Part shown: positions 9,681-26,000 of the stretch, in pieces | Layout of the letters: every line of letters starts with the position of its first letter | How positions within the stretch are numbered: the stretch's first letter is position 1 | Origin: a virus | Reading direction: 5' to 3' (one strand) | Length of the DNA: 34,537 bases | Virus record (IMG/VR): IMGVR_UViG_3300035670_000762 | Coordinates: 1-34,537 of that record | Made by a program: the position numbers and the translations under genes | The notes under the pieces: generated by a model | Seen by the model: the letters and a program-made list of their open reading frames with translations, nothing else | Database searches by the model: none | What the model was told of the DNA's origin: nothing

Positions 9681-10092
9681 TCTGGACCTGTTCGCCGATG
9701 ACCATGAGGCGTTGGGGCAGTTGGTTGACCGGATGGACTTGATCCCAATCGATGAGCTCAAGGCTAAATGGCCGCAATCTCTCGCGGATCTGGCGGATGT
9801 GATGGCGAGCGAATTGAAACGAGAAGGGGTGGCAGAGCCAGGTGCTAAATCCCGTAAGCTGGCTATGGTACTGGCTCATTATCTAGGTGGTCGGGCGTAC
9901 TACATCCCAACCGGTGAAAAGCTCAAGGCCGCGTTGCGTGACCTTGAGATCTTTGAGCGTTGGTACCAGAACGAGCCGATGGATAGCATTGCCACCCACT
10001 ATAAGCTGAGCCATCCGCAGCTTTACGTCATCATCTCCGAGCAGCGCAAGCTGCACAGGAAACGGCACCAACCGGATATGTTCGATTCATGA
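9673..10092 (+). CDS. mor: Mor/C-type transcription activator
   Basis: This 139-residue protein matches the Mor transcription activator family. An N-terminal dimerisation region (LADLADVMASELKREGVAEPGAKSRKLA) is followed by GGRAYYIPTGEKLKAALRDLEIFERW and a C-terminal HTH (PMDSIATHYKLSHPQLYVIISEQRK). In Mu, Mor activates the middle promoter and the related C protein activates late promoters. Only one such gene is present here, so it may do both jobs. It is the last gene before a strong terminator, and three matching promoter elements lie downstream, ahead of the late blocks. GAGGAGA precedes the ATG. Confidence 0.88.
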   Translation: MDNLDLFADDHEALGQLVDRMDLIPIDELKAKWPQSLADLADVMASELKREGVAEPGAKSRKLAMVLAHYLGGRAYYIPTGEKLKAALRDLEIFERWYQNEPMDSIATHYKLSHPQLYVIISEQRKLHRKRHQPDMFDS

Positions 10093-10121
10093 CCCCGCTT
10101 CGGCGGGGTTTCTCTTTTTTT
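10092..10121 (+). terminator. Rho-independent terminator of the early operon
   Basis: ACCCCGC (10092-10098), a TTCG tetraloop and GCGGGGT (10103-10109) are followed by a T-rich tract with seven consecutive T. This is a strong intrinsic terminator starting right after the mor stop, so early transcription should end here and the late genes need their own promoters. Confidence 0.92.
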
Positions 10122-10177
10122 GAGCTTCAAATGTTGCCATCATAAGGGAAGGGATAAATTCATATGGAGATGCGGAA

Positions 10178-10579: not shown

Positions 10580-10583
10580 ATAC

Positions 10584-10610
10584 AACCCCGCCGTCGAGCG
10601 GGGTTTTTCT
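10584..10610 (+). terminator. Rho-independent terminator after the moron gene
   Basis: AACCCCGC (10584-10591), loop CGTCGA and GCGGGGTT (10598-10605) are followed by TTTCT. The 3' half of this terminator plus the following activator box is repeated almost exactly at 22968-23002, so terminator and promoter form a repeated unit. Confidence 0.9.
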
Positions 10611-10612
10611 TA

Positions 10613-10657
10613 TGTAATACACAATAAACCCGCCTCAATCGCCCCCCTCGATACGCT
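10613..10657 (+). promoter_or_regulatory. Late promoter 1 (lysis/packaging block), Mor/C-type
   Basis: TGTAATACACAATAAACCCG at 10613-10632 is the first of three identical 20-bp boxes. Exactly 19 bp later is TACGCT (10652-10657), a -10-like hexamer. No good -35 is present, as expected where an activator replaces it. The box would span about -51 to -32, where Mor and C bind in Mu. A start near 10664 would leave a leader of about 26 nt with GGAGGG before the lysozyme gene. Confidence 0.72.
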
Positions 10658-10689
10658 ATCAGCACAGCATATCGAGCCGGAGGGCGAGC

Positions 10690-11253
10690 ATGTATAACAC
10701 TGCATTTTTATGGTTGATGATGGCCGAAGGGGGCGAAGTCAATCATGCCGCTGACAAGGGAGGCCACACCAAGTTCGGCATCGCAGATGCCGCTGATGGA
10801 AAAAAAGATGGTCTTGCTGATCTGGACCGCAATGGTTCCGGTGATGTGCCAATCGCCAGCTTGACCCGCGAGCAGGCCAGTCAATTCTATTTTGACCACT
10901 ACTGGCTGCCGTCCCGGTGCCAGCAGGTGGGCCGTATCCATGCTCCATTGGCAGTAGCGCTGTTTGATACGGCTGTCCATAGTGGACCAGGTCGGGCCAT
11001 TAAACTGTTGCAGATGGCGTTGGGGGTAACAGTCGATGGTGACCTGGGGCCGAAAACCCTAGAGTCCGTTGCCGATCGTGCGCGTATCAACAGCGGCCAT
11101 CCATTACTGTTGGCGTTCCTGGAGCAACGCTCCCGCTTCCTGTTGGGTATCGTCAAAGATGACGCCAGTCAATGGACCTTCGCCGCCGGTTGGCAGGCGC
11201 GCCTGTTGCGCTTGCAGTCATTCCTGCTGACTCACTCCGGCGCGTGGGAGTGA
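10690..11253 (+). CDS. Endolysin, glycoside hydrolase family 108 with peptidoglycan-binding domain
   Basis: This 187-residue lysozyme-like enzyme resembles GH108. The N-terminal motif AEGGEVNHAADKGGHTKFGIAD contains the family EGG signature, with Glu13 as the likely catalytic residue. The C-terminal half (LLQMALGVTVDGDLGPKTLESV) is a typical PG_binding_3 domain. The enzyme cleaves cell-wall glycan at lysis. No signal sequence or membrane anchor is seen, so it probably depends on a holin. GGAGGG precedes the ATG. It is the first gene after late promoter 1. Confidence 0.92.
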   Translation: MYNTAFLWLMMAEGGEVNHAADKGGHTKFGIADAADGKKDGLADLDRNGSGDVPIASLTREQASQFYFDHYWLPSRCQQVGRIHAPLAVALFDTAVHSGPGRAIKLLQMALGVTVDGDLGPKTLESVADRARINSGHPLLLAFLEQRSRFLLGIVKDDASQWTFAAGWQARLLRLQSFLLTHSGAWE

Positions 11254-11258
11254 ATCAG

Positions 11259-11567
11259 ATGGCCACTCAACGTCACACCTCATCCCGCCAACATACTGGC
11301 GATCCACAAGCTCCAACTCGCTACGGTATTCCAGAGCTGCGCAATCCGCGTTACTTGGCCATCTTTCGTGCTGGGCAAGAAGCTCGGGTGAAGGCGGATC
11401 AATTCGGCGTAGCCGCCCCGGACGCCGTGCCGTTGTACTCACATAACGCTACCTACCAAGCGCTGTTTACCAAAGGCTGGGAGTCGTTGTCAGAGGTTGA
11501 TCTGATGCGCCTTCGAGCCCGGCGGGCGGAGCGTGATAAACGGGGGGCTACATCATGTTGCCATTGA
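11259..11567 (+). CDS. Small late protein; weak resemblance to ribosome modulation factor
   Basis: This 102-residue protein starts at ATG 11259, a few bases after the endolysin stop; an earlier in-frame codon at 11172 would overlap that gene widely. The central part (YLAIFRAGQEARVKADQFG ... VPLYSHNATYQALFTKGWESL) loosely recalls the G-x2-A ... PY ... GW arrangement of Rmf-like proteins. The match is weak and I do not assign that function. It overlaps the holin gene by 13 bp. Confidence 0.5.
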   Translation: MATQRHTSSRQHTGDPQAPTRYGIPELRNPRYLAIFRAGQEARVKADQFGVAAPDAVPLYSHNATYQALFTKGWESLSEVDLMRLRARRAERDKRGATSCCH

Positions 11568-12148
11568 TCCCCATCCTGGCCTCTATGGCTGTTCAGCAGG
11601 GGCCTGCTCTGATCCGGGGTGTCGCGTCGATGTTCGGCGGCTCAGATACTGCCACTCAGGTGGCTGATATGGTCGAAGCTGTCGGCAAGGCCGGATTGCC
11701 ACAAGGAGACCAGGTGAATCTTTTGGCCGCTCAGTTGGCGACCATGCCAGCCGAGGCTCAGGTCGAGCTGACAAAACTCAAGGTCGCACTGGAACAAGAG
11801 ATCACGCGGCGCCAGGAGTTGGCATTTGCCGACAAACAAGCCGAGCAGTCGCAGACCCAGGAGACCATTCGTCAGGGCGATAACTCAGCCGATGCCTACG
11901 TTCGGCAGACTCGCCCGCTGATGGCCCGTCAATCGTGGCAGATGACGGCCATTTACGTCATGACGTTCAGCCTGTTGAGCGCTTGGGGTCGTGGTACCGG
12001 CCCGGACTTTGACATCGTGCTGATGTTGATGACTCCGGCGCTGGCCTATCTCGGCCTGCGCACCCTGGATGGTTGGGCTCCCTATTCCAAGGCCAGTGGC
12101 GACAAAGTCGCTGGTGCCATTACTGCACTGTTGCCGGGGAAAAAATGA
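11555..12148 (+). CDS. Holin-like membrane protein (3TM-type)
   Basis: In this 197-residue protein an amphipathic N-terminal region and a long charged helix (TKLKVALEQEITRRQELAFADKQAEQ) precede a conserved VRQTRPLMARQSWQ motif and two hydrophobic segments (MTAIYVMTFSLLSAWG; FDIVLMLMTPALAYLGLRTLDGW). The RQTRP motif followed by membrane helices is typical of the phage Holin_3TM family. Position next to the endolysin supports a pore-forming role at lysis. Its stop overlaps the next start (ATGA). Confidence 0.75.
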   Translation: MLPLIPILASMAVQQGPALIRGVASMFGGSDTATQVADMVEAVGKAGLPQGDQVNLLAAQLATMPAEAQVELTKLKVALEQEITRRQELAFADKQAEQSQTQETIRQGDNSADAYVRQTRPLMARQSWQMTAIYVMTFSLLSAWGRGTGPDFDIVLMLMTPALAYLGLRTLDGWAPYSKASGDKVAGAITALLPGKK

Positions 12149-12387
12149 CAGACATCCTCGATAGAGCTGCCGAACTGGAGCAGATGACTCGCGATCTGGC
12201 GCTGCAGGGCTGTGTGCAGCGCAGTTATGAAGCACCGGATGAAGATGAGATGGGGCGCTACTGCCTGGATTGCGGAGTGACCATCCCTGATGAACGGATT
12301 ATCCAGGTGCCGCATGCAGTTCGGTGTGTGGAGTGCCAAGAGATCCACGAAAAGAAGGAGTCCATTCGTGTGGGCAGACATCGTTAA
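12145..12387 (+). CDS. TraR/DksA-type zinc-finger protein
   Basis: The 80-residue product has the four-cysteine finger C-x2-C-x17-C-x2-C (YCLDCGVTIPDERIIQV ... RCVEC), the signature of TraR/DksA family proteins, after an N-terminal helix (RAAELEQMTRDLALQG). TraR-like proteins bind RNA polymerase through the secondary channel and mimic DksA/ppGpp effects. A homologue sits in the same place between lysis and packaging genes in many Mu- and P2-like phages. ATG 12145 overlaps the previous stop. Confidence 0.85.
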   Translation: MTDILDRAAELEQMTRDLALQGCVQRSYEAPDEDEMGRYCLDCGVTIPDERIIQVPHAVRCVECQEIHEKKESIRVGRHR

Positions 12388-12706
12388 AACCTATTGGCCA
12401 ATCGTTGTAGTGCTGGTGTCTCTGGCCTCGTTGGTGGTGCAGACGCTGTTGGCAAAGACATATGCCAAACGCGAGTCCGTTGCCGCCTTGGAGGGACGCA
12501 TTGCCGAGACATCCAATTCACTGGTGGTACGCATCACCATGGTAGAGCAGAAGATTGCCGACCTGCCCAGCGAGCGTGACCTGCACAAGCTGCAGCTGGA
12601 TATATCCGATCTACGCGGTGAGTTACGCGCTGTCAGGCCGGAGTTGGCTCAGTTGCGGCGGCTGAGTGATTTGTTGTTGGAAAACGAAATCAAGGAGAAA
12701 GCATGA
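12368..12706 (+). CDS. DUF2730 family membrane-anchored protein
   Basis: This 112-residue protein starts at GTG 12368, seven bases after AAGGAG (12355-12360). One N-terminal membrane helix (YWPIVVVLVSLASLVVQTLLA) is followed by a long coiled coil (VAALEGRIAETSNSLVVRITMVEQKIADLPSERDLHKLQLDISDLRGELRAV). This matches DUF2730, the Mu gp25 type. The shape, one membrane anchor plus a periplasmic-length coiled coil, also resembles an inner-membrane spanin. No separate spanin pair is visible nearby, so a lysis role is possible but unproven. Confidence 0.75.
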   Translation: MWADIVKTYWPIVVVLVSLASLVVQTLLAKTYAKRESVAALEGRIAETSNSLVVRITMVEQKIADLPSERDLHKLQLDISDLRGELRAVRPELAQLRRLSDLLLENEIKEKA

Positions 12707-12996
12707 GCATGATGGAGTTACTCGATGCTGACCGGCGCCTGGTGATATTACGGTCACTGGTGGACGTTGGGGGGGAGGCCAATGAGTCGATCCTCAATGA
12801 CTGCCTGGACGCTTATGGCCACCGCATCAGTCGTGACCAAGTGCGCACCCATATCAATTGGTTGGCAGAGCAAGGGCTGGTCACTGTTGAAATGGTGGGC
12901 AGTTACATGGTGGCCAGCCTGACCGGACGAGGGCAGGACGCTGCCGAAGGGCGTGCCACTGTGCCTGGTGTTAAAAAGCCTCGGGCGCGGGGGTGA
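12703..12996 (+). CDS. Mu gp26-like protein (VpaChn25_0724 family)
   Basis: This 97-residue protein resembles a compact winged helix (RRLVILRSLVDVGGEANESILNDCLDAYGHRISRDQVRTHINWLAEQGLVTVE). It fits the small phage family found between DUF2730 and DUF3486 genes in Mu-like phages, where Mu has gp26. Its function is unknown; DNA binding near packaging is a guess. It overlaps the preceding gene by 4 bp. Confidence 0.75.
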   Translation: MSMMELLDADRRLVILRSLVDVGGEANESILNDCLDAYGHRISRDQVRTHINWLAEQGLVTVEMVGSYMVASLTGRGQDAAEGRATVPGVKKPRARG

Positions 12997-12999
12997 TGC

Positions 13000-13578
13000 A
13001 TGGCCGATGAACGCCCTACTCGTGGCCGCTCCAGCAAGGTTGATCTGCTGCCGGAGAATATCCGCAATCAACTGCACGCGATGCTGCGCGAGAAGTCGAT
13101 TACCCAGCAGGAGATCCTGGACTCCATCAATGACCTGATTGGTGAAGAAGGATTACCAGACGATCTCAAGCTCTCCCGTTCTGGACTGAACCGTTACGCC
13201 ACGCAAGTGGAACAGGTTGGCGCTAGTCTTCGCCAGATGCGTGAGGCCACCGCCGCCTTGACTGCGCAACTGGGTGATAAGCCGACGGGCGAGGTGACCA
13301 AGCTCATTCTGGAAATGGGGCGCGGCCAGCTGTTCAAGCTGTTTATGGCTCAGGCCAATGACCCTGATGCCGAAGTGGATGTGGGCATGCTCAAAGAGGC
13401 CATGCTTGCCGCCCAGCGTCTGGAATCCACAGCGATGCAAAGCCATAAGCGGGAGAAAGAGATCCGCCAGGCGTTTGCTGAGGAGGTAGCAGCCAAGACC
13501 GAGCAGATTGTTACCCAGGCAGGCTTGACCAAAGACACCGCCGCGCAGATCCGGCGCGAGATATTGGGGATCGCATGA
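13000..13578 (+). CDS. DUF3486 family protein, likely small terminase subunit (Mu gp27)
   Basis: This 192-residue protein has an N-terminal HTH-like region (KVDLLPENIRNQLHAMLREKSITQQEILDSINDLI ... LSRSGLNRYA) and a long helical C-terminal part, matching DUF3486. Genetic position, directly before the large terminase and overlapping it, supports the small terminase role proposed for Mu gp27: recognising phage DNA for headful packaging. Confidence 0.85.
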   Translation: MADERPTRGRSSKVDLLPENIRNQLHAMLREKSITQQEILDSINDLIGEEGLPDDLKLSRSGLNRYATQVEQVGASLRQMREATAALTAQLGDKPTGEVTKLILEMGRGQLFKLFMAQANDPDAEVDVGMLKEAMLAAQRLESTAMQSHKREKEIRQAFAEEVAAKTEQIVTQAGLTKDTAAQIRREILGIA

Positions 13579-15137
13579 TGGAGCAGACTGCAGTTTCTCG
13601 TGCCATCCAGCTCGCCGCCCAATTGGGAACCGAGTTCAACCCGGATGATGTGCTGCTGCCGTATCAGAAGATCTGGATAGCCGATGACAGCCCGTTAAAG
13701 ATTGCGGAGAAGTCACGGCGGACGGGGATCACCTGGGCAGAAGCGGCTGACGCCACGCTTAAATCCTCGATGGCCAAGTCGGAAGGTGGCTCCAACCACT
13801 TCTATGTGGGCTCTAATAAGGAGATGGCCCGCGAGTTTATTGACGCCGTGGCCATGTGGGCCAAGGCGTTTAATAAGGCCGCCGGGGATATCCAGGAGGA
13901 AGTGTTTGCCGATGAGGACAAAGACATCCTGACCTTTGTGGTCTACTTCTCATCCGGATTCAAGGTGCAGGCGCTCTCGTCCAACCCCTCGAACCTCCGG
14001 GGGATGCAAGGGACGGTGACCATTGATGAAGCAGCATTCCACGAGCGTCTGGCCGAAGTGCTCAAGGCTGCGTTGGCGCTCACCATGTGGGGGGCCAAGG
14101 TCCGTTTAATCAGTACCCACAATGGCGTGGATAACCTGTTTAACCAGCTGATAACGGACAGCCGCGCAGGGAAGAAACGCTATTCCATTCACACCATCAC
14201 TCTGGATGACGCTTGTCGGCAGGGGCTCTACCGCCGCATCTGCCAGGTCAAAGGCATGGTCTGGAGTCAGGCCGTCGAAGATGAGTGGAAAGCCGGTCTG
14301 CTCAAAGACACGGCCACCGAAGAGGATGCCCTCGAAGAATATTTCTGCGTCCCCAAGCAAGGCGGTGGGGCCTATATCAAGCGATCCCTGATTGAGCGGG
14401 CCATGCAGCCGGATATCCCCATCATCCGCTTCACCGCGCCCAAAGACTTCGAGCTGATGAGCGAAGAGACCCGCACCGTTGTGGTCTCGGTTTGGTGTGA
14501 GGAAAACCTGAAACCATGGCTGGATGGGCTGGATCAGACCTGCCGCCATGTCCTGGGTGAGGACTTTGCCCGCAAGGGGGACTTGTCGGTGTTTGTGCCG
14601 TTGGTCATTGCCAGCAACCTGCGCAAGCGGGTGCCGTTCGTGGTGGAGTTGGCCAATGCCCCTTACGAGACTCAGCGGCAGATCCTCTTCTATATATTGC
14701 TGGGGCTGCCGCGCTTGCGTGCGGCTTCTTTTGATGCCACCGGCAACGGTGGTTATCTGGCAGAAGCGGCCCGACTCAAGTGGGGGGCTGGCATGATTGA
14801 ATGCGTGATGCTCAATGACCCCTGGTACCGGGAGTGGATGCCCAAGCTCAAGGTGGAGTTTGAAGACGATACCTTGGTGATCCCTCGTCATGCCGATGTG
14901 GTCGATGATCTGGGCAAGATCCAGGTGGTCAACGGGGTGCCCAAAATCGACAAGGGGCGCAGCACTGATGCTTCGGGCCAAAAGCGTCACGGCGATTTCG
15001 CGGTGGCACTGGCCATGGCGATCCGGGCCAGCTGGATGGAGGGCGGATCTATCGAGTTCACGCCATTACCTGGTAAGCGCGAAACCAGCCCGGACGATGA
15101 CGACGACTATCACCGCTTTGAGCGAGGAGCCTGGTAA
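13575..15137 (+). CDS. Large terminase subunit (Mu gp28-like)
   Basis: This 520-residue packaging motor and nuclease has an ATPase domain with a variant Walker A around EKSRRTGITW (residues 45-54) and Walker B TVTIDEAAF (148-156). The C-terminal RNase H-like nuclease has Asp330 in GEDFARKGDLSV and Asp387 in SFDATGNGGYL. It cuts and pumps DNA into the prohead; Mu-type packaging starts near the left end and takes in host DNA. It overlaps neighbours on both sides. Length and motifs are normal for the family. Confidence 0.93.
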   Translation: MMEQTAVSRAIQLAAQLGTEFNPDDVLLPYQKIWIADDSPLKIAEKSRRTGITWAEAADATLKSSMAKSEGGSNHFYVGSNKEMAREFIDAVAMWAKAFNKAAGDIQEEVFADEDKDILTFVVYFSSGFKVQALSSNPSNLRGMQGTVTIDEAAFHERLAEVLKAALALTMWGAKVRLISTHNGVDNLFNQLITDSRAGKKRYSIHTITLDDACRQGLYRRICQVKGMVWSQAVEDEWKAGLLKDTATEEDALEEYFCVPKQGGGAYIKRSLIERAMQPDIPIIRFTAPKDFELMSEETRTVVVSVWCEENLKPWLDGLDQTCRHVLGEDFARKGDLSVFVPLVIASNLRKRVPFVVELANAPYETQRQILFYILLGLPRLRAASFDATGNGGYLAEAARLKWGAGMIECVMLNDPWYREWMPKLKVEFEDDTLVIPRHADVVDDLGKIQVVNGVPKIDKGRSTDASGQKRHGDFAVALAMAIRASWMEGGSIEFTPLPGKRETSPDDDDDYHRFERGAW

Positions 15138-16729
15138 TGGCACAGAGCAGAATTATAGATATCCACGGCAACCCGCTGGCCTTTGAGCCGGAGCCGCAAA
15201 CCGAGAACGACAGCAAGCTGGGGATGCTGCGCAAGCATTACTCCGAGCACCCGACTGTGGGGCTCACTCCGGCCAAAGCCGCCATGGCCTTGCGCGAGGC
15301 TGAGCAGGGCAGTCTGCTCCTGCAGTGCGAACTGGCGGAAGATATGGAAGAGAAAGACAGCCACCTGCAGTCGGAGCTGGGTAAACGTCGCCGCTCGCTG
15401 CAGTCAGTTCCCTGGACTATCCAGCCGCCGCGCAACGCCACTCCGGAAGAGAAGCGCGATGCCGCGATGATCACCGAGTTGCTGGAAGACTTCACTTGGT
15501 TTGATGACTGCCTGTTCGATGCCAGCGATGCCATCCTCAAGGGCTTTTCGGCGCAGGAGTTTACCGGCTGGGAACAGGTCGAGGGCTTGATGTTGCCCAA
15601 GGGGTTGGAGTGGCGAGACCCAGCATGGTTCCAGACCCACCCGGATGATCGCAATGCTCTGCGCCTGCGCGATGGCTCCTATGAAGGTGCGGCGCTCAAC
15701 GGCTTTGGCTGGATCGTCCACCGCGCCAAGTCCAAGTCGGGCTATCTGGCGCGCAATGGCCTGATCCGGACGCTAGTCTGGCCGTTCCTGTTCAAGAACT
15801 ACAGCGTGCGAGACCTCGCGGAGTTCTTGGAGATCTATGGGTTGCCAGTTCGTCTGGGTAAATACCCGGAAGGAGCGACGGAGAAAGAAAAAGCCACCTT
15901 GCTGCAGGCCGTGCTCAGCATTGGTCACAATGCCGGAGGGATTATCCCGCGCGGGATGGAGATCGACTTCGAGAACGCCGCCAGCGGGCAGGCCGATCCC
16001 TTTGTAGTAATGATGGATTGGTGCGAACGTTCCATGTCCAAGGCTATCTTGGGCGGTACGCTCACCAGTCAGGCCGATGGTAAGAGCAGCACCAACGCCC
16101 TGGGTAATGTCCACAACGAAGTGCGACTGGAGGTGCGTGACTCCGATCTCAAGCAGCTGGCCGCCACACTGACCCGCGATCTGATCTATCCGCTGTATGC
16201 GCTCAACGGCACAAGTTATCAGAACCAGCGGCGCATTCCGCGCCTGGAGTTTGATGTCACCGAGCCGGAAGACATGGCCAAAGTGGCGGCCCCGCTACGA
16301 GAATTGGTCAGCATGGGGCTCAAGGTGCCAGCCAGTTGGGTGCGTGACAAGCTGCAGATCCCCGAGCCCCAGGGCAATGAGGCCGTGCTGCAGATGGTGA
16401 CCGAGCAGGTGCCAGGATCCCAGGGTGAGGCGGCATTGAAAGCCAAAGCCGCGCATTGGGCTGTGCTGGCCGCCGAGCGCCAGGTGCAAGACAAGGCCGA
16501 TCTACTGACGGGCCGGTTAAGTGCGGCCGGAGAGGATGCCATTACTGGTTGGGCTGCTGAGGTTGAGCAACTGCTGGGCGAGGTCAAGTCGCTGGAGGAG
16601 TTCCGCGACCGGTTGCTGGAGCGCTATCGCGATCTGCCGACCGAGGAGCTGGCCACGTTGATGCAACGGGCATTTGTCGCTGCAGAGCTGGCTGGCATGG
16701 CTGATGTCGGCCAGCCGGAGGGTGCTTGA
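15137..16729 (+). CDS. DUF935 portal protein (Mu gp29-like)
   Basis: The 530-residue protein matches the DUF935 portal family. Typical segments include EMEEKDSHLQSELGKRR-like text (residues about 69-90), LVWPFLFKNYSVRDLAEFLEIYGLPVRLGKY (about 215-245) and GGTLTSQADGKSSTNALGNVHNEVRLEV (about 312-340). Twelve copies normally form the ring through which DNA enters and leaves and to which the tail attaches. It overlaps the terminase by one base and the MuF gene at TGATG. Confidence 0.93.
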   Translation: MAQSRIIDIHGNPLAFEPEPQTENDSKLGMLRKHYSEHPTVGLTPAKAAMALREAEQGSLLLQCELAEDMEEKDSHLQSELGKRRRSLQSVPWTIQPPRNATPEEKRDAAMITELLEDFTWFDDCLFDASDAILKGFSAQEFTGWEQVEGLMLPKGLEWRDPAWFQTHPDDRNALRLRDGSYEGAALNGFGWIVHRAKSKSGYLARNGLIRTLVWPFLFKNYSVRDLAEFLEIYGLPVRLGKYPEGATEKEKATLLQAVLSIGHNAGGIIPRGMEIDFENAASGQADPFVVMMDWCERSMSKAILGGTLTSQADGKSSTNALGNVHNEVRLEVRDSDLKQLAATLTRDLIYPLYALNGTSYQNQRRIPRLEFDVTEPEDMAKVAAPLRELVSMGLKVPASWVRDKLQIPEPQGNEAVLQMVTEQVPGSQGEAALKAKAAHWAVLAAERQVQDKADLLTGRLSAAGEDAITGWAAEVEQLLGEVKSLEEFRDRLLERYRDLPTEELATLMQRAFVAAELAGMADVGQPEGA

Positions 16730-18009
16730 TGCCAGCGAGCAGCAAGAGCAGCCGCCAGAGCCTTGGCCCTTTTATGGAGGGGCCAACCAGGCCGATGGAT
16801 GCCCGATCTGGCAGCCAGTATTTTCAGCAGGCGATCGACTACTTCCGCGATAAGGTCAACGTAAAGGGCGAGGCGTGGGATTCGCTGTGGCAAGGCCAAC
16901 ATGCCGCAGCCTTTACCGTTGCCGGTGCTATGAAAGACGACCTGCTCTGTGACTTGCGCCAGTCGGTGGATAAAGCCATCTCCCAGGGCATGAGCCTGGC
17001 AGATTTCCGCCTCCAGTTTAAAGAGATTGTGGCCAAGCATGGCTGGACGGGGTTCACGGGCGAAGGAAGCAAGGCCGGAGTAGCCTGGCGGGCTAAGGTC
17101 ATCTATGACACCAACATGCGGCAAGCCTACAACGCGGGCCGTTGGCAGCAACTGCAGCAGTTTGATATTTGGGTCTATCGCCATGGCGACAGCCGCTCTC
17201 CGCGACCAGAGCACTTATCCTGGAACGGATTGGCGTTACCGAAGAATGACGCTTGGTGGCGTACTCATTTCCCGCAGAACGGCTGGGGCTGCCATTGCCG
17301 AGTGGAGGGGTACTCCAAGGTGCGGGCCAAGCTCAATGGCATCGAGATCGGCCAGGCTCCTGACGACGGCACCTATGAGTATGTGAACAAGAAGACCGGC
17401 GAGGTGATGCAGGTACCAACCGGGATCGATCCCGGCTTTGATTACTCGGTGGGTGAGGCCAAGTTCGGCCGCCGTCTGGCTCAGGCAGAATATGACCAGT
17501 GGAAAGGGCCCCGGGCTGATGCGTGGCAGAGTCTGACTCCAGGTGGTTGGCAAACCGAGATGCGTCCGGAGCGGCTGCCTGTCCGGCCTTTGCCGCAGCC
17601 ATTGCAACAGCCGGTCGCTGCAGGGGATGTGGTCCAGGCAGTGAAGACTGCCTTGGGCGCTGACGAAGCTCTGATGACTACCCCAGTGGGCACCGTTCTG
17701 GTTGACGCCGAGGTGTTGGGTTCCCATTTGGCCGATGATGCGGCCCGCACGGCTTACCTGCCTCTGCTCGCAGATGCCCTCGCCAATCCCCAGGAAGTCT
17801 GGCAGAGCTTCGAGCAGCACAAGGGCACCGGCAAGGTCGTGTTGCGCACCCGGTTTGTTACGGTCTACCAGGTAAGGAAGGACAAGGCGCTATTGGTAGC
17901 TTTTAATGCGGTTCGGGGAGTGTTGACGGCGTGGACACTAATCGGCACGTCGGATCTGAAATACCTGAACAGGCAGAGAATGGGTCAGTTGATCCATGTA
18001 GAAGAGTAG
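16729..18009 (+). CDS. MuF head morphogenesis protein with C-terminal PBECR-like nuclease domain
   Basis: This 426-residue protein starts at ATG 16729, overlapping the portal stop (an in-frame TTG at 16726 is less likely). Residues about 40-200 are the MuF/SPP1 gp7 minor head domain, ending in the signature RPEHLSWNG ... WWRTHFPQNGWGCHCRV. Residues about 310-426 (GTVLVDAEVLGSHL ... YLPLLADALANPQEVW ... FVTVYQVRKDKALLVAF ... LNRQRMGQ) resemble the phage Barnase-EndoU-ColicinE5/D-RelE-like nucleases found fused to MuF. Such domains are thought to be RNase toxins injected with the DNA. The domain assignment comes from pattern memory; no separate immunity gene is evident next to it. Confidence 0.85.
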   Translation: MPASSKSSRQSLGPFMEGPTRPMDARSGSQYFQQAIDYFRDKVNVKGEAWDSLWQGQHAAAFTVAGAMKDDLLCDLRQSVDKAISQGMSLADFRLQFKEIVAKHGWTGFTGEGSKAGVAWRAKVIYDTNMRQAYNAGRWQQLQQFDIWVYRHGDSRSPRPEHLSWNGLALPKNDAWWRTHFPQNGWGCHCRVEGYSKVRAKLNGIEIGQAPDDGTYEYVNKKTGEVMQVPTGIDPGFDYSVGEAKFGRRLAQAEYDQWKGPRADAWQSLTPGGWQTEMRPERLPVRPLPQPLQQPVAAGDVVQAVKTALGADEALMTTPVGTVLVDAEVLGSHLADDAARTAYLPLLADALANPQEVWQSFEQHKGTGKVVLRTRFVTVYQVRKDKALLVAFNAVRGVLTAWTLIGTSDLKYLNRQRMGQLIHVEE

Positions 18010-18118
18010 GGCCCTCGCTCCCTGACCGCCGGGCGGGCTCTCCTGCTCGGGTATTGCGGCGGTCCGCACCCGTCTCGGATCGATGTGAGTATGACAGTAA
18101 CAATATTCAGGAGGCAAC

Positions 18119-18544
18119 ATGGCTGGCGCATTTATCACCATCACCCCATCCGGCCATGAGTCGGCGTTGGAGTTGCTGCAGCAGTTGTATGACAAGACCG
18201 GCGATATCAGCCCGGCGCTGGCCGATATCGGCGAGGCATTGCTGGAAAGTCATAAGGCCAGATGGAAGGCCGAGCAGGCCCCGGATGGTTCGCCCTGGTT
18301 GCCGTTGGCCCCTGAGACAATAGAGGCCAAGGGTTTTGATCTGATCTTGCGTGAGCATGACTATCTGCGTGACATGCTCAACTATGCTGTCGATCCTCTG
18401 GCGCTCTACTTCGGTACTCCGATGGTCTACGGGGAATATCACCAGTTCGGCTGTGGTGTTCCGGAGCGGCCATGGTTAGGGGCATCAGAATCGGATGGTA
18501 AGCAGGTTCTGGACATTGTTGCGGCCTATTTGCTAGAAGAATAG
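18119..18544 (+). CDS. Virion morphogenesis protein (Mu gpG-like)
   Basis: This 141-residue protein fits the phage virion morphogenesis family: an N-terminal helix (ALELLQQLYDKTGDISPALADIGEALLESHKARW), a central DGSPWLPLAPETIEAK, then LREHDYLRDMLNYAVDPLALYFGTPMVYGEYHQFG and a PERPWLG ending. Mu gpG acts in tail completion or head-tail joining. AGGAGG lies just before the ATG. The 109-bp spacer before it is GC-rich and shows no convincing gene. Confidence 0.88.
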   Translation: MAGAFITITPSGHESALELLQQLYDKTGDISPALADIGEALLESHKARWKAEQAPDGSPWLPLAPETIEAKGFDLILREHDYLRDMLNYAVDPLALYFGTPMVYGEYHQFGCGVPERPWLGASESDGKQVLDIVAAYLLEE

Positions 18545-18587
18545 CGAACCTCATAGAACGCATCAGGCTCGATTTGGAGGGGGTCTG

Positions 18588-18680
18588 GTGCGGCGGATGT
18601 ACCCATATGATATGGTTGAGCCAGTTCGGAATGATTTAAACGCCATTAAACGCTACTCGCGTCCCCCTGATCTCCTGTAA
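18588..18680 (+). CDS. Possible 30-residue ORF before late promoter 2
   Basis: GTG 18588, preceded by GGAGG (18576-18580) at good spacing, opens a frame of 30 codons (MRRMYPYDMVEPVRNDL, then NAIKRYSRPPDLL) ending at TAA 18678-18680. That stop lies inside the repeated activator box at 18676. The peptide looks protein-like, with a basic start and a helical middle, but is too short to be sure. It occupies most of the 182-bp gap between the gpG and protease genes, which otherwise shows no terminator. Confidence 0.35.
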   Translation: MRRMYPYDMVEPVRNDLNAIKRYSRPPDLL

Positions 18681-18720
18681 TACACAATAAACCCGCCAAT
18701 TTCCCCCGCCATTCGACAAT
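18676..18720 (+). promoter_or_regulatory. Late promoter 2 (protease-capsid block), Mor/C-type
   Basis: The same 20-bp box lies at 18676-18695 (it also shares the next bases CC with copy 1). After exactly 19 bp comes GACAAT (18715-18720), matching four of six bases of a -10. No terminator precedes it, so it should add to read-through from promoter 1 and raise transcription of protease, scaffold and capsid. The predicted start falls at about 18727, the A of the annotated protease ATG. Confidence 0.68.
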
Positions 18721-18726
18721 GGCGGT

Positions 18727-19875
18727 ATGAAATCTATTCGTTCGACCTCACAGCCGCAGGGGCTGGCTCTCCTGCAAGCCTTGCCGCTTGACCCGCGCTT
18801 GCCGCCTCGCGTGGCCGTGTTGGAAGCGGCACTCAAATCTGCTGACGACGGCTGGCATCAACTGCTACCCGCGGGCGCATTTACGGCCCGTGATGGCAGA
18901 CCCTTCGATGTGGAGGGCGGTCAGTGGCACCTGGACGAACAGACTGCAGGCGTACTAATTGCCAAGGCTCGTAATCTGGGCCAGGACATCCTGATCGACT
19001 ACGACCACCAAACCCTCAAGACCGACCAGAACGGCCAACCCGCGCCAGCCGCAGGGTGGTTTAACGCCGACGAGATCCTGTGGCGTGAAGGCGAAGGTCT
19101 GTTTATCAAACCCCGCTGGACCGAGAAGGCCGCCGCCCATCTGTCGGCAGGTGAGTACCGGTTCCTCTCTGCTGTATTCCCTTATGACGCTAACGGCCGT
19201 CCGTTAGAGCTGCGCATGGCCGCCCTGGTCAATGACCCAGGGGTGGTTGGCATGCAGGCGCTGGCCGCATTGGCTGCCCAGTTTAATTCCACAACCCACT
19301 CCTCTAAGGAGGAACCGCAAATGAATGAGTTGCTTAAGAAACTCCTGGCCAAGCTCGGGATCGAGGTGCCTGCAGACGGTCAATTGACCGGCGAGCAGGA
19401 AACCGCTGCGCTCTCCGCGCTCGAATCTGCGCTGGATAAGTCGAAGAAAGTCCCGGAGCTGGAGCAGTCCGTGGCTGCCCTTAAGGCCGCTACGCCTGCT
19501 CAGGGCCAGGTTGATCTGGACAAGTATGTCCCGAAAGAAACCTACACCGCTCTGGTGCAGCAAGTCGCCGCGCTGTCGGCCAAGGTCGATACCACCGATG
19601 CCGAATCGGTGCTCAAGGAGGCTCGCGAACAGGGCAAGGTTGTTGCCGCCGAAGAGGGCTATCTGCGTGAGTATGCAGCCCAAAAGGGCGTCGCCGCGCT
19701 CAAAGCCATGCTGGCTCCGCGCCCGGCACTTGCCGCCCTGTCGGCACAACAGACGTCCAGTCTGCCTGATCCGCAAACCAAGGGAACTGCCGTGCTATCG
19801 GCAGAAGATAAGTACGCCGCAGACCAGCTGGGTATTTCCCATGCTGACTTCGCCAAGCTCAAGGAGACCAACTAA
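18727..19875 (+). CDS. Head maturation protease-scaffold precursor (Mu gpI-like)
   Basis: This 382-residue protein matches Mu I-type phage proteases: WHQLLPAGAFTARDGRPFDVEGGQWHL, ILIDYDHQTLKTDQNGQPAPAAGWF, GEYRFLSAVF and NDPGVVGMQAL are conserved blocks in the first 180 residues. The C-terminal half is a charged, Ala/Leu-rich scaffold. The protease directs prohead assembly and cleaves scaffold. The start is uncertain: ATG 18727 has no ribosome site and coincides with the predicted transcript start, so it may be leaderless. GTG 18811 would give an N terminus closer to family length. Confidence 0.85.
   Translation: MKSIRSTSQPQGLALLQALPLDPRLPPRVAVLEAALKSADDGWHQLLPAGAFTARDGRPFDVEGGQWHLDEQTAGVLIAKARNLGQDILIDYDHQTLKTDQNGQPAPAAGWFNADEILWREGEGLFIKPRWTEKAAAHLSAGEYRFLSAVFPYDANGRPLELRMAALVNDPGVVGMQALAALAAQFNSTTHSSKEEPQMNELLKKLLAKLGIEVPADGQLTGEQETAALSALESALDKSKKVPELEQSVAALKAATPAQGQVDLDKYVPKETYTALVQQVAALSAKVDTTDAESVLKEAREQGKVVAAEEGYLREYAAQKGVAALKAMLAPRPALAALSAQQTSSLPDPQTKGTAVLSAEDKYAADQLGISHADFAKLKETN
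19321..19875 (+). CDS. Internal-start scaffold protein (Mu gpZ-like)
   Basis: In the same frame as the protease, ATG 19321 is preceded by TAAGGAGGA (19305-19313), the strongest ribosome site of the head block. It would give a 184-residue scaffold (MNELLKKLLAKLGIEVPADG ... LGISHADFAKLKETN), the C-terminal part of the full-length product. This reproduces the nested I/Z arrangement of Mu, where scaffold is made in excess of protease. It overlaps the capsid gene by one base. Confidence 0.8.
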   Translation: MNELLKKLLAKLGIEVPADGQLTGEQETAALSALESALDKSKKVPELEQSVAALKAATPAQGQVDLDKYVPKETYTALVQQVAALSAKVDTTDAESVLKEAREQGKVVAAEEGYLREYAAQKGVAALKAMLAPRPALAALSAQQTSSLPDPQTKGTAVLSAEDKYAADQLGISHADFAKLKETN

Positions 19876-20783
19876 TGGCCCTCGTTACTCCTACGCTGAT
19901 TTCAGCGCTCTTTACCGGATTCAACAAGAACTTCCAGGACGCGCTGGGCGAAGTCCCGTCCCAGTACACTGAAATCGCTACTGTGATCCAGTCCACTACG
20001 AAGTCCAATACCTATGGCTGGCTCGGTAAGTTCCCCTCCTTGCGCAAGTGGGTCGGTGATCGGGTCATCAATTCGATGTCGGCACATGGCTATGCCATCA
20101 CCAACGAAGACTACGAGTCCACGGTTGGGGTCGATCGCAATGACATCGAGGATGACCAGCTGGGCATCTATGCGCCGCTGTTTGCTGAGATGGGGCGTGC
20201 CGCTGGTGTCCATCCGGATGAGCAAGTTTTTGGTGTGCTCGCTGCTGGCTTCACGACTGCTTGCTATGACGGCCAGTACTTCTTCGATACCGATCATCCG
20301 GTCTACCCCAATGTGGACGGCACCGGCACGCCGGTCTCTGTGGCCAACCTGGTGGTTGATGGGGCGTACACCGGTGAGCCTTGGTATGTGCTGGATACCA
20401 GCCGCGCTTTGAAGCCGCTCATCTTCCAAGAGCGTAAGAAGCCGCAGTTGATCTCCATGGACAAGATCGATGACGAGTCGGTGTTTACCAAGAAGCAGTT
20501 CCGTTACGGCGTCGATTGCCGTGATGCTGTGGGCTTCGGCTTCTGGCAGTTGGCGTTCGCCAATAAGCGCGCCCTGAATGCGGACAACCTCTGGGACACC
20601 ATCGAGAAGATGCGAGCCATTGAAGGGGATGGCGGCAAGAAGCTGGGTATCAAGCCGACGATCCTGGTTGTTCCTCCGTCACTGGAAAAACTTGCCACTC
20701 GCTTGCTGGAACGTGAGCAGGACGCCAACAGCTCGAACGAGCTCAAGGGGCGCGTCAAGTTGCTGGTCGCCGACTACCTGTAA
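19875..20783 (+). CDS. Major capsid protein (Mu gpT-like)
   Basis: The 302-residue protein matches the Mu gpT family. Examples are the N-terminal ISALFTGFNKNFQDALG, the segment STTKSNTYGWLGKFPSLRKWVGDRV, YFFDTDHPVYPNVDGTG, and the C-terminal LGIKPTILVVPPSLEKLATRLLE. It forms the HK97-fold icosahedral shell. AAGGAGA precedes the ATG, which overlaps the scaffold stop. It is followed by stable hairpins, fitting high expression. Confidence 0.94.
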   Translation: MALVTPTLISALFTGFNKNFQDALGEVPSQYTEIATVIQSTTKSNTYGWLGKFPSLRKWVGDRVINSMSAHGYAITNEDYESTVGVDRNDIEDDQLGIYAPLFAEMGRAAGVHPDEQVFGVLAAGFTTACYDGQYFFDTDHPVYPNVDGTGTPVSVANLVVDGAYTGEPWYVLDTSRALKPLIFQERKKPQLISMDKIDDESVFTKKQFRYGVDCRDAVGFGFWQLAFANKRALNADNLWDTIEKMRAIEGDGGKKLGIKPTILVVPPSLEKLATRLLEREQDANSSNELKGRVKLLVADYL

Positions 20784-20786
20784 CCA

Positions 20787-20813
20787 CCCGTTTACCGCCC
20801 GTGTAAACGGGCG
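20787..20813 (+). other. Overlapping alternative hairpins after the capsid gene
   Basis: CCCGTTTAC (20787-20795) and GTAAACGGG (20803-20811) form a perfect 9-bp stem with a 7-base loop. The overlapping pair CGCCCG (20796-20801) / CGGGCG (20808-20813) forms a second, mutually exclusive stem with loop TGTAAA. No U tract follows, so mRNA stabilisation or partial attenuation is more likely than termination. Confidence 0.5.
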
Positions 20814-20843
20814 TTAAACCCCATCACAAGGGGGAATCATGAG

Positions 20844-21335
20844 ATGGTCAAATCTATTCCGATTCATGTCGTATCTGTGGCCCATACCGGCTATTTACGA
20901 GCGGGTGTGCGCCTGGACGCGGGGGTTAATGAAATCACTGTGTCACCTGGCCAGCTCGCGGCCATGGAAGCCGACCCGCGTTTGGTGGTCACGGTGCTGG
21001 CTGCGATTGCAGAACAGCCTGCCGATGATGATGCGCCGACGCAAGGGCGTCTGGACTCTGGTCTGGATGGCTCCGGCGTAGGCGAACAGTTATCGCCGAC
21101 ATCTTTAGCCACCGGGACTCTGGGCGGGGTGATGGAGCAGGATGGCACGGTTAAGTCACTGGCCGACATGAGCCAGACCGCGCTCAAGGCACTGGCTAAG
21201 GATCTGGAAATCAAGGGCTATACCAGCATGGATAAGCCAGCTCTGGTTGCTGCTATAGCGGCCACCAAGATCCAGTACGACGCCTCCGAAGCTGATGGCA
21301 AGAAGCAAGTCGCTGACGAGCAGGCCGAGGGCTAA
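20844..21335 (+). CDS. FluMu-type small virion-region protein with HeH/SAP-like C terminus
   Basis: This 163-residue protein's N-terminal half (SIPIHVVSVAHTGYLRAGVRLDAGVNEITVSPGQLAAMEADPRLVV) fits the Mu-like FluMu N-terminal domain found after the capsid gene. The C-terminal part (SLADMSQTALKALAKDLEIKGYTSMDKPALVAAI) has the form of a HeH/SAP-like helix-extended-helix, which often binds nucleic acid. The role in the particle is unknown. AAGGGGGA lies before the ATG. Confidence 0.75.
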   Translation: MVKSIPIHVVSVAHTGYLRAGVRLDAGVNEITVSPGQLAAMEADPRLVVTVLAAIAEQPADDDAPTQGRLDSGLDGSGVGEQLSPTSLATGTLGGVMEQDGTVKSLADMSQTALKALAKDLEIKGYTSMDKPALVAAIAATKIQYDASEADGKKQVADEQAEG

Positions 21336-21338
21336 GCC

Positions 21339-21752
21339 ATGTACGCCACGCTCCAGGATATGCAAAGCCGGTTTGGGGTCGACTTACTGCGTGTTGCGGT
21401 GATCCCAGGCACAGCCACTCTGGATGAGGCGGTTATCACCCAGGCGCTGGCAGATGCCAGCAGCCTGATTGATGGCTACCTGGCAGGGCGTTACCCGCTG
21501 CCATTGGCTCATGTGCCGACGGCGTTGGTGCCGATCTGCTGCGACATTGCCCGCCACCGGCTCTATGGCGAGCAGGCCCCGGAACAAATCGGTAAACGGT
21601 ATGAAGCTGCCCTCGCGTTCTTGAAGTCTGTTGGCCGTGGTGAGCTGGCGCTGGGGATGTCGGCGGATGGCGAGCAGCTGGAAAGCCAAAACCTGGCCGA
21701 GTTGCAATCTGATGGTCGGGTGTTTGGTCGCCAAAGCGGAGGGTTTATCTGA
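21339..21752 (+). CDS. DUF1320 head-tail connector protein (Mu gp36-like)
   Basis: This 137-residue protein matches DUF1320: the start MYATLQDMQSRFGVDLL, then LADASSLIDGYLAGRYPLPLAHVPTALVPICCDIARHRLYG, and QIGKRYEAALAFLKSVGRGELALG. The family supplies an adaptor-type connector between portal and tail. It sits three bases after the preceding stop and directly before the gp37-like gene, as in Mu. Confidence 0.88.
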   Translation: MYATLQDMQSRFGVDLLRVAVIPGTATLDEAVITQALADASSLIDGYLAGRYPLPLAHVPTALVPICCDIARHRLYGEQAPEQIGKRYEAALAFLKSVGRGELALGMSADGEQLESQNLAELQSDGRVFGRQSGGFI

Positions 21753-21753
21753 T

Positions 21754-22179
21754 ATGGATGGCGTCGATTTGTTGGCGGCCGGTGATGAGCTAAAAGCGCT
21801 GATCCAGCCACTGGTTGGGCAGGATTTGCGCGAGGTGCTGATTGCAACCGATATGGCTGAGGTCAAGAACATCAGCCAGGTGGCCCCAGCCGTCGCGATC
21901 ATCTACCAAGGCGATAGGGTCGATAGCAGTAGCCAGTCGGGGTTGGTTTCGTCAGTCGTACAGTCGTGGCTTGTTCTGCTGGTGCATCGGTTTACTCCTG
22001 GCCAAGCCAGAGCCGGGGTCATGTTAGGACGTGTCTTGTCGGCTTGTGCCGGTAAGCCATTCAGTAACTCTACGTTCAAACGGGTGAGCCCTGGCGTTCG
22101 CCCCAGCTATGCCGCAGGCGTGTCTTATCTGCCGCTGGCATTTGAAATTACTATCAAGTTCAAAGGAGTCAGATCATGA
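21754..22179 (+). CDS. Gp37/DUF1834-like tail terminator or completion protein
   Basis: This 141-residue protein starts at ATG 21754, one base after the preceding stop. Features include an N-terminal helix (DELKALIQPLVGQDLREVLIATDMAEVKN), VAPAVAIIYQGDRVD, a beta-rich QSWLVLLVHRF, and the C-terminal YLPLAFEITIKFKGV. Its pattern and position fit the gp37-type proteins that cap the tail tube and join it to the head. It overlaps the tube gene by 4 bp. Assignment to the exact family is tentative. Confidence 0.7.
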   Translation: MDGVDLLAAGDELKALIQPLVGQDLREVLIATDMAEVKNISQVAPAVAIIYQGDRVDSSSQSGLVSSVVQSWLVLLVHRFTPGQARAGVMLGRVLSACAGKPFSNSTFKRVSPGVRPSYAAGVSYLPLAFEITIKFKGVRS

Positions 22180-22934
22180 GTCAACCCCAGGAACAAACCT
22201 TCCATTTTGCCGGGAATGTTTATATCAACCCGTATGAGAATGGCGCTTACACCGGTCTGATCGGCCCTATCGATGTTGATTCGTTAGAAATTAAAGCCGA
22301 TGCCAAGAAAAACACGGTGCAGAGCAAGAAGAAGGAAAGCTATGGGCAAGCCCGGAAATCTTACTGGCTTTCCCAGCCTGCCCAGCTAACCCTCAAGACC
22401 AATGAGATCCCGCCTCTTTTGTTGGCGGCGGCATTCATGGGGCGAGAAACGACCATCAATCAGGGGAGCGGTACGTTGACGGATTTGGCGGTCACTCTGC
22501 CTGCTTATCCGAAATGGATTCAACTGCCCAAGACCAATCTTGCGAGTGTTGGTTTCTCGGTCAAAAATGGAGCCGCTGAATTGGCCGCCACGGACTTTGA
22601 GGTGAACTACGCCTTGGGGTTGCTGCGCGCCACAGCTGCCGGAACCATTGCTGATGGTTCTCCGGTAACGGTGAGCGGTACGCATAACGCAGTGACTGGA
22701 ACGCGGATCGAAGGTAACGTCAAGCCAGCCATCGAGGCTCAAGTGCTACTGGACGGTGTCAACCTCATTGACAATAGTCCTATGAAACTGGATGTGCCGC
22801 TGACCAGCCTGAGCCCCAAGAACGGGGTGGACTTCCTCTCTGAGAAGGCTGTTGAAATAACGTTGGAAGGTGAAGTGCTGTTCAAGTCTGGTGAAACCGC
22901 ATCCTTCTATGTGGAGCGGCCGGTCACAGCGTGA
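22176..22934 (+). CDS. Tail tube protein
   Basis: This 252-residue beta-rich protein begins QTFHFAGNVYINPYENGAYTGLIGPIDVDSLEIKADAKKN and ends with an immunoglobulin-like or tube-type VEITLEGEVLFKSGETASFYVERPVTA. This is the style of major tail (tube) proteins of siphoviruses. Position before the tape-measure gene supports it. It is followed by a terminator, so it closes the second late transcription unit. No sheath gene accompanies it. Confidence 0.75.
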   Translation: MSQPQEQTFHFAGNVYINPYENGAYTGLIGPIDVDSLEIKADAKKNTVQSKKKESYGQARKSYWLSQPAQLTLKTNEIPPLLLAAAFMGRETTINQGSGTLTDLAVTLPAYPKWIQLPKTNLASVGFSVKNGAAELAATDFEVNYALGLLRATAAGTIADGSPVTVSGTHNAVTGTRIEGNVKPAIEAQVLLDGVNLIDNSPMKLDVPLTSLSPKNGVDFLSEKAVEITLEGEVLFKSGETASFYVERPVTA

Positions 22935-22951
22935 TAGCCTATTTACATATC

Positions 22952-22981
22952 AAAGCCCCGCCATCGTGCGGGGTTTTTCTT
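22952..22981 (+). terminator. Rho-independent terminator after the tube gene
   Basis: CCCCGC (22956-22961), loop CATCGT and GCGGGG (22968-22973), extended by AA/TT pairs, are followed by TTTTTCTT. It ends transcription from late promoters 1 and 2, and is directly joined to late promoter 3. Confidence 0.92.
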
Positions 22982-22982
22982 A

Positions 22983-23027
22983 TGTAATACACAATAAACC
23001 CGACCATCGGGCACCGCTTTATACCAT
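22983..23027 (+). promoter_or_regulatory. Late promoter 3 (tail block), Mor/C-type
   Basis: The third exact copy of the 20-bp box is at 22983-23002, followed after 19 bp by TACCAT (23022-23027), four of six -10 matches. The predicted start is near 23034, giving a leader of only about 24 nt before the tape-measure ATG. The preceding terminator makes this promoter essential for the tail genes. Confidence 0.7.
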
Positions 23028-23057
23028 GGGGTTAAACCATCCAACCCTGTGGCCGTC

Positions 23058-26000
23058 ATGAGCAACAAAGATCTGAAACTCGCGCTAGAACTTGCAGCCA
23101 AAGCCACGGGCCGCGAGGAGATTGCCGAGCTCAATAAAGAGGTCGGCAACCTTGGCCCTATCTCCAACGCTGTGGAGCAAGAGACCAAAGAGCTGGCGCA
23201 GAGAATGCAGCAGCTCGGTCAGCAGCGCGATCAGATCGATGCCTTCAAAAAGTCCAAAGAGGCGCTGACTCAGCTAGCGCTGGCGACCGTCCTCTCCCGC
23301 GACAAACTCGAAGAGTTTCGCAAGAGTCAGAAGTCTGGCTCAGGGGATGCACAAGATCTGGCACGTCAGGAGCAACTGCTGGCCCGTGAGGTCAAGCAGC
23401 TTGAATCCCAACTCGTTCGCCAGGCGGCAACCCACACCAAATTGCACGCCGGACTTAAACAGTCTGGCATCGATACTCAGAACCTCGCCGGTGAACAAAA
23501 CCGGCTACAACGCGAACTCACCGAAACCGCTACACGCACCGAGAAGCTGGCCCGAGAACTGATAGGCGGCCAGACTGGGGCCAGCAGTATGGCGACCGGT
23601 GTTGCTGGCTTGACCACTCGCTTGGTCGCCATGGCCGGGGCCTATGTTGGTATTCAGGCGCTCAAAGACGCCGTCCTGTCATTCTTTGCTGCTGGCGACA
23701 AGGCCGAACAGCTCAGCATTCAGATGAATGCGGTAATGGGCTCTATTCAGGGCGGCCAAGAAGCCACCGCCTGGATCAATGATTTTGCCAAGAAAACCCC
23801 TCTCCAACTCAATGAAGTAACGCAGACCTTCATCCGGCTCAAAGCCATGGGGCTAGATCCAATGGACGGGTCTATGCAGGCTGTTGTTGACCAGTCCTCC
23901 AAGTTGGGCCTGGGCTTTGAGGGGGTGGAGAGTATTTCCTTGGCGCTCGGCCAGGCCTGGGCCAAGGGAAAGTTGCAAGGCGAGGAAATGTTGCAGATGC
24001 AGGAGCGTGGCGTTCCTGTGCTGGATTTACTGGGCAAGGCGTTGGGCAAAACCACCGCCGAGCTGGGCGAGATGTCGGCTAAGGGACTACTCGGCCGCGA
24101 TGCTATCAAAGCGTTAATCGCAGAGATGGGGAGTGAATCTGCCGGTGCCGCCAATGCGCAGATGGGCACCATGTCAGGGCTGTTATCCAACTTGGGAGAC
24201 AGTTGGACCAACTTCAAGGTTGCTGTTGCCAACTCGGGTGCCCTGGAGTGGCTAAAGCAACAGCTCACTGACTTGAACACCACCATCAACGAGATGGCGG
24301 CCGATGGTCGGCTGAAACAATACGCGCAACAGGTGTCGGATTGGCTGGTCACCACCGGGCAAAGTGTCAAACAGTTCATGCTGGATATCGGTGGCAGCTT
24401 TGACGGAATGCTCAGCGCTGTCAACGTCACTGTGCAGTCGCTGCGGGTGGTATTCAACGCATTCACCGCGGCTGTGAAGGGGATGGCCGCCGGGTTCTTG
24501 ACCAATCTATTTCTGATTACGACCGGCCTGGAAAAATTAGCAGGTGCGCTCGGGATGAAGGGGCTGGCTGCTGAACTGAGCCAGGCCACTGGTCTGTTGA
24601 AGGCAGAAATGGATGCGTTCGCCAAGTCGGCAAAAGAGGATCTGGATGATATCGCGGATGCCTCTGTCCGGATGAGCGGGACGCATACCAAAGCCACTGA
24701 CGAAGTGAAGAAGTCGCTGCAGGAGTTTGCCAAAGAGAGCAAGACCCAAAGTGATGAAGTCGTGAAGCATCAGTCTGCAATCGCCGATTCTGCAGTGTCG
24801 TCCTCTAGCGCATTAAGTGATGCCCTGAAAGGCATCGGGCTGGACTATGAGCGTCTTGAGGGCAACGTTGGAGCTAGCTTCAAGGGGATATCGTCTGCGC
24901 TGGATCTGTTGGTCGAGACCAGCGGTGTCGGCGCCGAGACCATCAAAGCTACGTTAGAAGAAGGGTTTAAACAGGCCAAAAACAAAGCTGAACTGGATCT
25001 AGTGACTCAAGCCATGGAGCACTTGCATGAGCAAGGCAAGTTGGTCGGCCCCGCCTACGTTGAAAGCATGAGCCTGGCAGGCACCGCTAGCAAACGTCTT
25101 GTAGGGGAAACGCAAGGGGTCATCGACCGCCTGAAATTACAAAAGGCTGCCGCTGATGAGGCCTACAAGAAGGGCCAGATGGGAGCCGAGGAGCACACTC
25201 GACTCGTTGGCAAGCTGAATACCGAAATAGATAAGACCACCAAGGCATCCCAGAAAAATGCAGATGCCGCCGATAACATGACCAAGGCCTATTCCGATTT
25301 TGGTATGCAGTCAGCCAAAGCGTTAGAGGATCAGGCCGCCAAGCTCAAGACGTCATTCGAAACAATTCAGCGCGGAGCCGAGCCTATCGAGCAAGTCAAA
25401 TCGGCCTTCCTCAAGTATGCCGAGGCTCAGCTTGAGTCAGATAAAGCGAACGGAAAATTCACGACAGGGGCGCTATCTGCACAGGCCGCAACCCTGGGGC
25501 TGTCATCTGAATTTGACGCCCTGAAAACATCGGTTAACACCACGGGTAAAGAGGCTGTCATTACCGCCGCCGCCCTGGACCACTTAGGCAATAGCAGCCA
25601 GCAGGCAGGCGATAAGGCCGCCGCATCCGGGCAAAAGCTGGATAAGCATGCAGAAGATATTAAGAACCTGGAAGAACACACCCGCAAAGCCAGCTCCGGC
25701 CAGCTGACATTCGCCACCGCCATGATGAAATCCTCCGAGGTCGCCTCGATGAGCCTGGATGACATCAATACCAAGATGGCCGAAGCCCAGGAGATCTGGG
25801 AGTCGAGCTACAACTACCTGCAGCAATCCAATGATATCTCCACCGAGTGGTGGTCGCCGTTTGTCCTCAAACAAAAGCTGGCTCAGGAAAACAACCTGCA
25901 AATCCTGGGTCAGATGAAACGCGTTCGCGAGGCATCTGATGCCCTGGCCAGTGCTGAGCAACCGACCGCCAAGCTGGTCGCCAATGCCGAACGGGCAGTG

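Follow-up and report, generated by a model that had tools for sequence, protein, structure and literature searches.

Three identical C-boxes probably mark the late promoters of a Mu-like phage, with two predicted transcription starts nested in hairpins

The window, namely the whole 34,537-nucleotide stretch of viral DNA analyzed here (IMG/VR record IMGVR_UViG_3300035670_000762), contains three identical 20-bp boxes that are very probably the C-boxes of -35-less sigma70-type late promoters homologous to Plys, PI, and PP of phage Mu, activated by the product of the gene at 9673. This assignment was based on the sequence and spacing of the boxes, the genes around them, their recurrence in relatives, activator homology, and a match with the annotated Mu promoters; we infer binding by the 9673 product and the start sites, and the kinetic step is taken from Mu. 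The window was shown to represent a Mu-like phage encoding a MuA-type transposase, a MuB-like ATPase, GemA, terminase, protease I, gpT, and a tape measure protein.

The box, TGTAATACACAATAAACCCG, was found in three exact copies, all on the plus strand, and no further site with three or fewer mismatches was detected on either strand of the window. The sequence was also absent from 100 dinucleotide shuffles, in line with the proposal of the initial annotation that the triplicate could not be due to chance. A search for the exact 20-mer among other IMG/VR contigs returned none. At all three sites, a -10-like hexamer follows the box after exactly 19 bp, and a scan of 9600-23200 revealed no sigma70-type -35/-10 pair there, both as initially described. 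When +1 was set seven bases past the -10, as is usual for sigma70 promoters, the promoters were laid out as follows:

10613..10632, + strand: C-box 1 (Plys), -51 to -32, with the likely dyad TGTAA-N6-ATAAA at 10613-10628
10652..10657, + strand: -10 of Plys, TACGCT, after the 19-bp gap; predicted +1 at 10664
18676..18695, + strand: C-box 2 (PI), -51 to -32
18715..18720, + strand: -10 of PI, GACAAT; predicted +1 at 18727, the A of an ATG
22983..23002, + strand: C-box 3, a PP-type promoter before the tape measure gene, -51 to -32
23022..23027, + strand: -10 of the third promoter, TACCAT; predicted +1 at 23034

By comparison with Mu and the relatives, the box is a C-box, an element of an already known kind. 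Profile matches also bore out the view that the three copies precede a lysis/packaging, a protease-capsid, and a tail block, copy 1 lying before the lysis gene, copy 2 before protease gene I, and gpT (PF10124) coming after protease I:

10690..11253, + strand: lysozyme (glycosyl hydrolase 108; PF05838, 4e-19), heading the late lysis/packaging operon
18727..19875, + strand: Mu-like protease I (PF10123, 1.7e-103), heading the capsid operon
23049..26558, + strand: tape measure protein (PF20155, 6.6e-36), heading the tail operon; its start codon is GTG 23049 or ATG 23058

The putative activator is encoded upstream of these blocks:

9673..10092, + strand: C-type late transcription activator of 139 aa (PF08765, E = 1.9e-24)

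Among phage records, the best match of its product was Mu gpC (45.9% identity over 96%), and a profile of 16 relatives matched the solved Mu C structures 9l0x and 9vw8 with E of about 5e-55, while the same profile matched Mor (1rr7) at 2e-24, well behind them. By homology, the 9673 product is thus specifically a C orthologue. The initial annotation had regarded this gene as the lone Mor/C-type gene of the window, which stood, since it is the sole PF08765 gene and its family matches agree; its description as Mor-like has to be changed to C-like, given the 46% identity to Mu C. A Mu-type early-middle-late cascade with Mor and C involves two PF08765 genes, as found in Mu, whereas the window and nearly all relatives possess one; the Mor-driven middle stage of Mu therefore seems to be absent in this phage group.

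No C-box was found upstream of the 9673-10092 gene, and C itself would be switched on without Mor. In one relative (L121:4769, contig G015), a second, partial Mor/C-family frame with a PF08765 match at 8480-8677 is followed by a degenerate C-box and a Plys-like hairpin, so that the C-Plys region appears to have been duplicated.

In the Mu record AF083977, each of the four annotated late promoters was shown to consist of a ACCATAANCCCG-like core, a 19-bp gap, and a -10:

Mu Plys: ACCATAATCCCG-N19-TAGACT
Mu PI: AGCATAACCCCA-N19-CAAACT
Mu PP: GCCATAACCCCG-N19-TATCCT
Mu Pmom: CCAATAACCACA-N19-TAAGAT

The annotated features start exactly 10 bp 5' of the core in all four cases and, given our +1 placement, would span -53 to +13 or +14. 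A core at about -43 to -32 with the fixed 19-bp gap is thus common to the three sites of the window and the four of Mu. The four Mu promoters require C, which acts on Plys, PI, and PP at open-complex formation (PMC4461284). The activator family, the box core, the 19-bp gap, the lack of a -35, and the location of sites before the lysis gene, the protease I gene, and the tail block are all shared with these C-dependent promoters. In contrast, the common box of the window is longer (20 bp identical in triplicate), its third site precedes the tape measure gene, whereas that of Mu lies within N and upstream of P, a fourth (mom) box is lacking, only one Mor/C gene is present, and hairpins occur at the Plys and PI starts together with a predicted leaderless gene I.

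The Mor element has been described as 16 bp in length, with two 5-bp inverted repeats flanking a G/C-rich hexanucleotide and its center at -43.5 (PMC4390567, PMC4287176); the dyad to which C binds in late promoters is related to it (PMC4287176). The 16 bp at -51 to -36 read TGTAA-TACACA-ATAAA in the window and TGTAA-CCCACC-ATAAA in many relatives, so that the recognition dyad is likely TGTAA-N6-ATAAA, symmetric at three of five positions with a weak left half and in the same register as for Mor. This supported the initial placement of the boxes at -51 to -32, where Mor and C bind in Mu, the dyad being centered at -43.5 like that of Mor in the middle promoter Pm. The window sites resemble Pm in the 5+6+5 dyad, its center, and a -10 without a -35, and differ from it in that no Mor accompanies C and the boxes lie at late, not middle, genes. 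The 9-bp palindrome TGTAATACA that the initial annotation had pointed out is present in each box, but its center is odd and it is not conserved, most relatives reading TGTAACCCA; it was accordingly rejected as the recognition dyad. TTAT-N10-ATAA, seen around boxes 1 and 3, was also discarded, TTAT being missing at box 2. When the boxes were inspected for changes that go along with changes in the helix-turn-helix of C, no clear rule emerged.

A search of related phages, which had been suggested as a check, found the box and the 19-bp gap before the lysis gene and gene I in about 20 relatives, mostly Aeromonas phages, and in several also before the tape measure gene or genes inserted 5' of it. 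The TACGCT of Plys is invariant among the Aeromonas-type relatives. The Pasteurellaceae relatives exhibit a diverged box just past C, CCACAAACCCA, with a gap of 18-19 bp and TACACT or TAAACT. With a motif built from the relatives' Plys and PI sites, the window sites ranked first to third (34.2, 34.0, and 29.5), the next score in the window being 8.5, so that no fourth box was found, and the best score in 200 simulated genomes being 21.0. A leave-one-relative-out scan gave 37 sites scoring at least 16, every one of them on the late strand and thus none on the opposite one; because the training sites were collected with a core chosen in knowledge of the window and Mu, this motif test is not fully independent. 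Among the relatives, the Plys and PI copies differ by 1-5 bases and the PP-type copies by 4-10; the exact identity of the three copies in the window is therefore unusual and suggests recent homogenization or tighter constraint. Meanwhile, three relatives (L067, L068, and L089) were found to carry one or two extra C-box promoters per genome between the tail tube and tape measure genes, which precede inserted genes and are followed by a common GGGCATATCTGAATCT leader; C-boxes thus seem to travel as late promoters for cargo genes.

It is very improbable that the boxes serve another regulator, whether a host protein or one of the phage HTH proteins (4608, 5189, or 12703), with the C-type protein acting elsewhere. 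The window does encode further small HTH-like proteins, as judged from weak matches, but the core, the gap, and the gene positions are as in Mu, where the role of C is proven, and the box-bearing relatives, which were retrieved through their C-type gene, each carry one such gene. Another explanation, that the repeats represent a terminator-plus-spacer module copied by duplication and have no regulatory role, could draw on copies 1 and 3, which sit within a longer module of 47 bp (10586-10632 and 22956-23002, 96% identical) that starts with an intrinsic terminator:

10586..10608, + strand: intrinsic terminator immediately 5' of box 1, CCCCGCCGTCGAGCGGGGTTTTTC
22956..22978, + strand: intrinsic terminator immediately 5' of box 3, CCCCGCCATCGTGCGGGGTTTTTC

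Copy 2, however, has only the 20 bp in common with the others and no such terminator, and in the relatives the flanks have diverged around a retained box and 19-bp gap, which leaves this explanation hardly credible. The terminator and C-box module itself is a within-genome duplicate.

A gene for a small secreted-type protein lies between C and Plys (10178-10579), bracketed by terminators at 10091-10110 and 10584-10605. Its product gave weak DUF4124, BamE, and DUF2845 signals, every one under the cut-off, and the relatives have a different sequence in this gap; the gene looks like a cargo (moron) gene.

With the boxes read as C-boxes under the control of the 9673 product, a C-type dimer would bind -51/-36 at the half sites TGTAA and ATAAA, separated by a 6-bp spacer and centered at -43.5. 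With C bound, as in Mu, host RNA polymerase would assemble into productive open complexes at the three -10 hexamers (TACGCT, GACAAT, and TACCAT), and transcription would start at about 10664 (lysis/packaging), 18727 (protease-capsid), and 23034 (tail).

In addition to this control, and not as an alternative to it, we give about even chances to a further layer, in which the late starts would be nested in hairpins and gene I RNA would be leaderless. Read-through RNA would then hide the late gene start or end before it, and C-driven RNA, having no 5' arm, would be translated. The relevant elements are as follows:

10641..10685, + strand: inverted repeat around the Plys start (hairpin region 10641-10692)
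18706..18726, + strand: palindrome CCGCCATT-CGAC-AATGGCGG with 8-bp arms, overlapping the PI -10 and adjoining the start codon

At Plys, the arm 5' of +1 (about GCCCCCCTCGATACGC) is promoter DNA comprising the spacer and the -10, and the 3' arm comprises the leader and the lysozyme Shine-Dalgarno sequence GGAGGG. Compared with random positions in the same genome, the straddling hairpin gave p = 0.047 in the window, a marginal value uncorrected across several tests, and p = 0.0003 in L137, 0.003 in L134, 0.0007 in L101, and 0.01-0.07 in Pasteurellaceae relatives. In five relatives (L137, L134, L148, L140, and L147), a T-run lies between the hairpin and the ATG, which would make it a full intrinsic terminator, whereas the window hairpin has no T-run. 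The arms vary among lineages yet still pair, with two-sided pair-keeping changes at five of 13 consensus pairs. Removal of the 5' arm raised the predicted accessibility of the start region in all 14 lineages, the single p values being weak (0.10 in the window). The straddling hairpin was not significant at the third promoter of the window (p = 0.12), and the fold energy of 44-nt RNA pieces at the promoters was not distinctive against the whole genome. At the four Mu late promoters, Plys (p = 0.61), PI, PP, and Pmom, no straddling hairpin was seen, and hairpins as a general feature of Mu were thus dismissed.

At PI, the predicted +1 coincides with the A of ATG 18727, the sole plausible start codon of gene I, and no Shine-Dalgarno sequence was found at the normal distance from it; gene I mRNA is accordingly predicted to be leaderless. 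The dyad gave p = 0.027 in the window, likewise marginal and uncorrected, and 0.0008-0.032 in the six further leaderless or near-leaderless lineages tested (L077, L073, L080, L038, L094, and L091). The 6-nt distance from the -10 to the ATG recurs in L077, L054, L071, L073, L080, L038, and L094, and each of those tested has a palindrome of its own. Meanwhile, no dyad was present at that place in two tested members of a second Aeromonas clade, which has a GGAG leader, or in Mu. The arrangement at 18706-18735, with the start at the ATG and an adjoining palindrome, recurs with different sequences in several relatives.

Although the start sites are predicted, and the marginal window values and the null result in Mu weigh against it, the recurrence of both elements makes it quite conceivable, at slightly under even chances, that a large Mu-like group nests its C-dependent starts in hairpins that terminate transcription or hide the Shine-Dalgarno sequence (lysis) and in a palindrome with a leaderless start (gene I), as a combined transcriptional-translational lock. 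The closest known device is the hairpin of T4 gene e, whose ribosome site is hidden in early RNA and whose nested late promoter yields RNA without the 5' arm that is translated (PMC3014915). The likeness is one that we infer; the phage, promoter type, and sequence are unrelated, and in several relatives the hairpin doubles as an intrinsic terminator.

These results give the likely late transcription map of this phage. In Mu-like phages of the Aeromonas type, the C-box motif GTAAyCCACMATAAACCC-N19-(-10) locates late promoters, cargo gene promoters among them; its core diverges in Pasteurellaceae phages. The control circuit itself is known and the present case is a new example of Mu C-type late control; the predicted location of two start sites within RNA hairpins appears to be a previously unreported twist on it. 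If the lock holds true, only transcripts begun by C would escape termination and be translated, keeping the late genes silent in lysogeny and early growth. If the nested hairpins work as predicted, the T4 lysozyme lock would have arisen again in unrelated phages, joined to termination.
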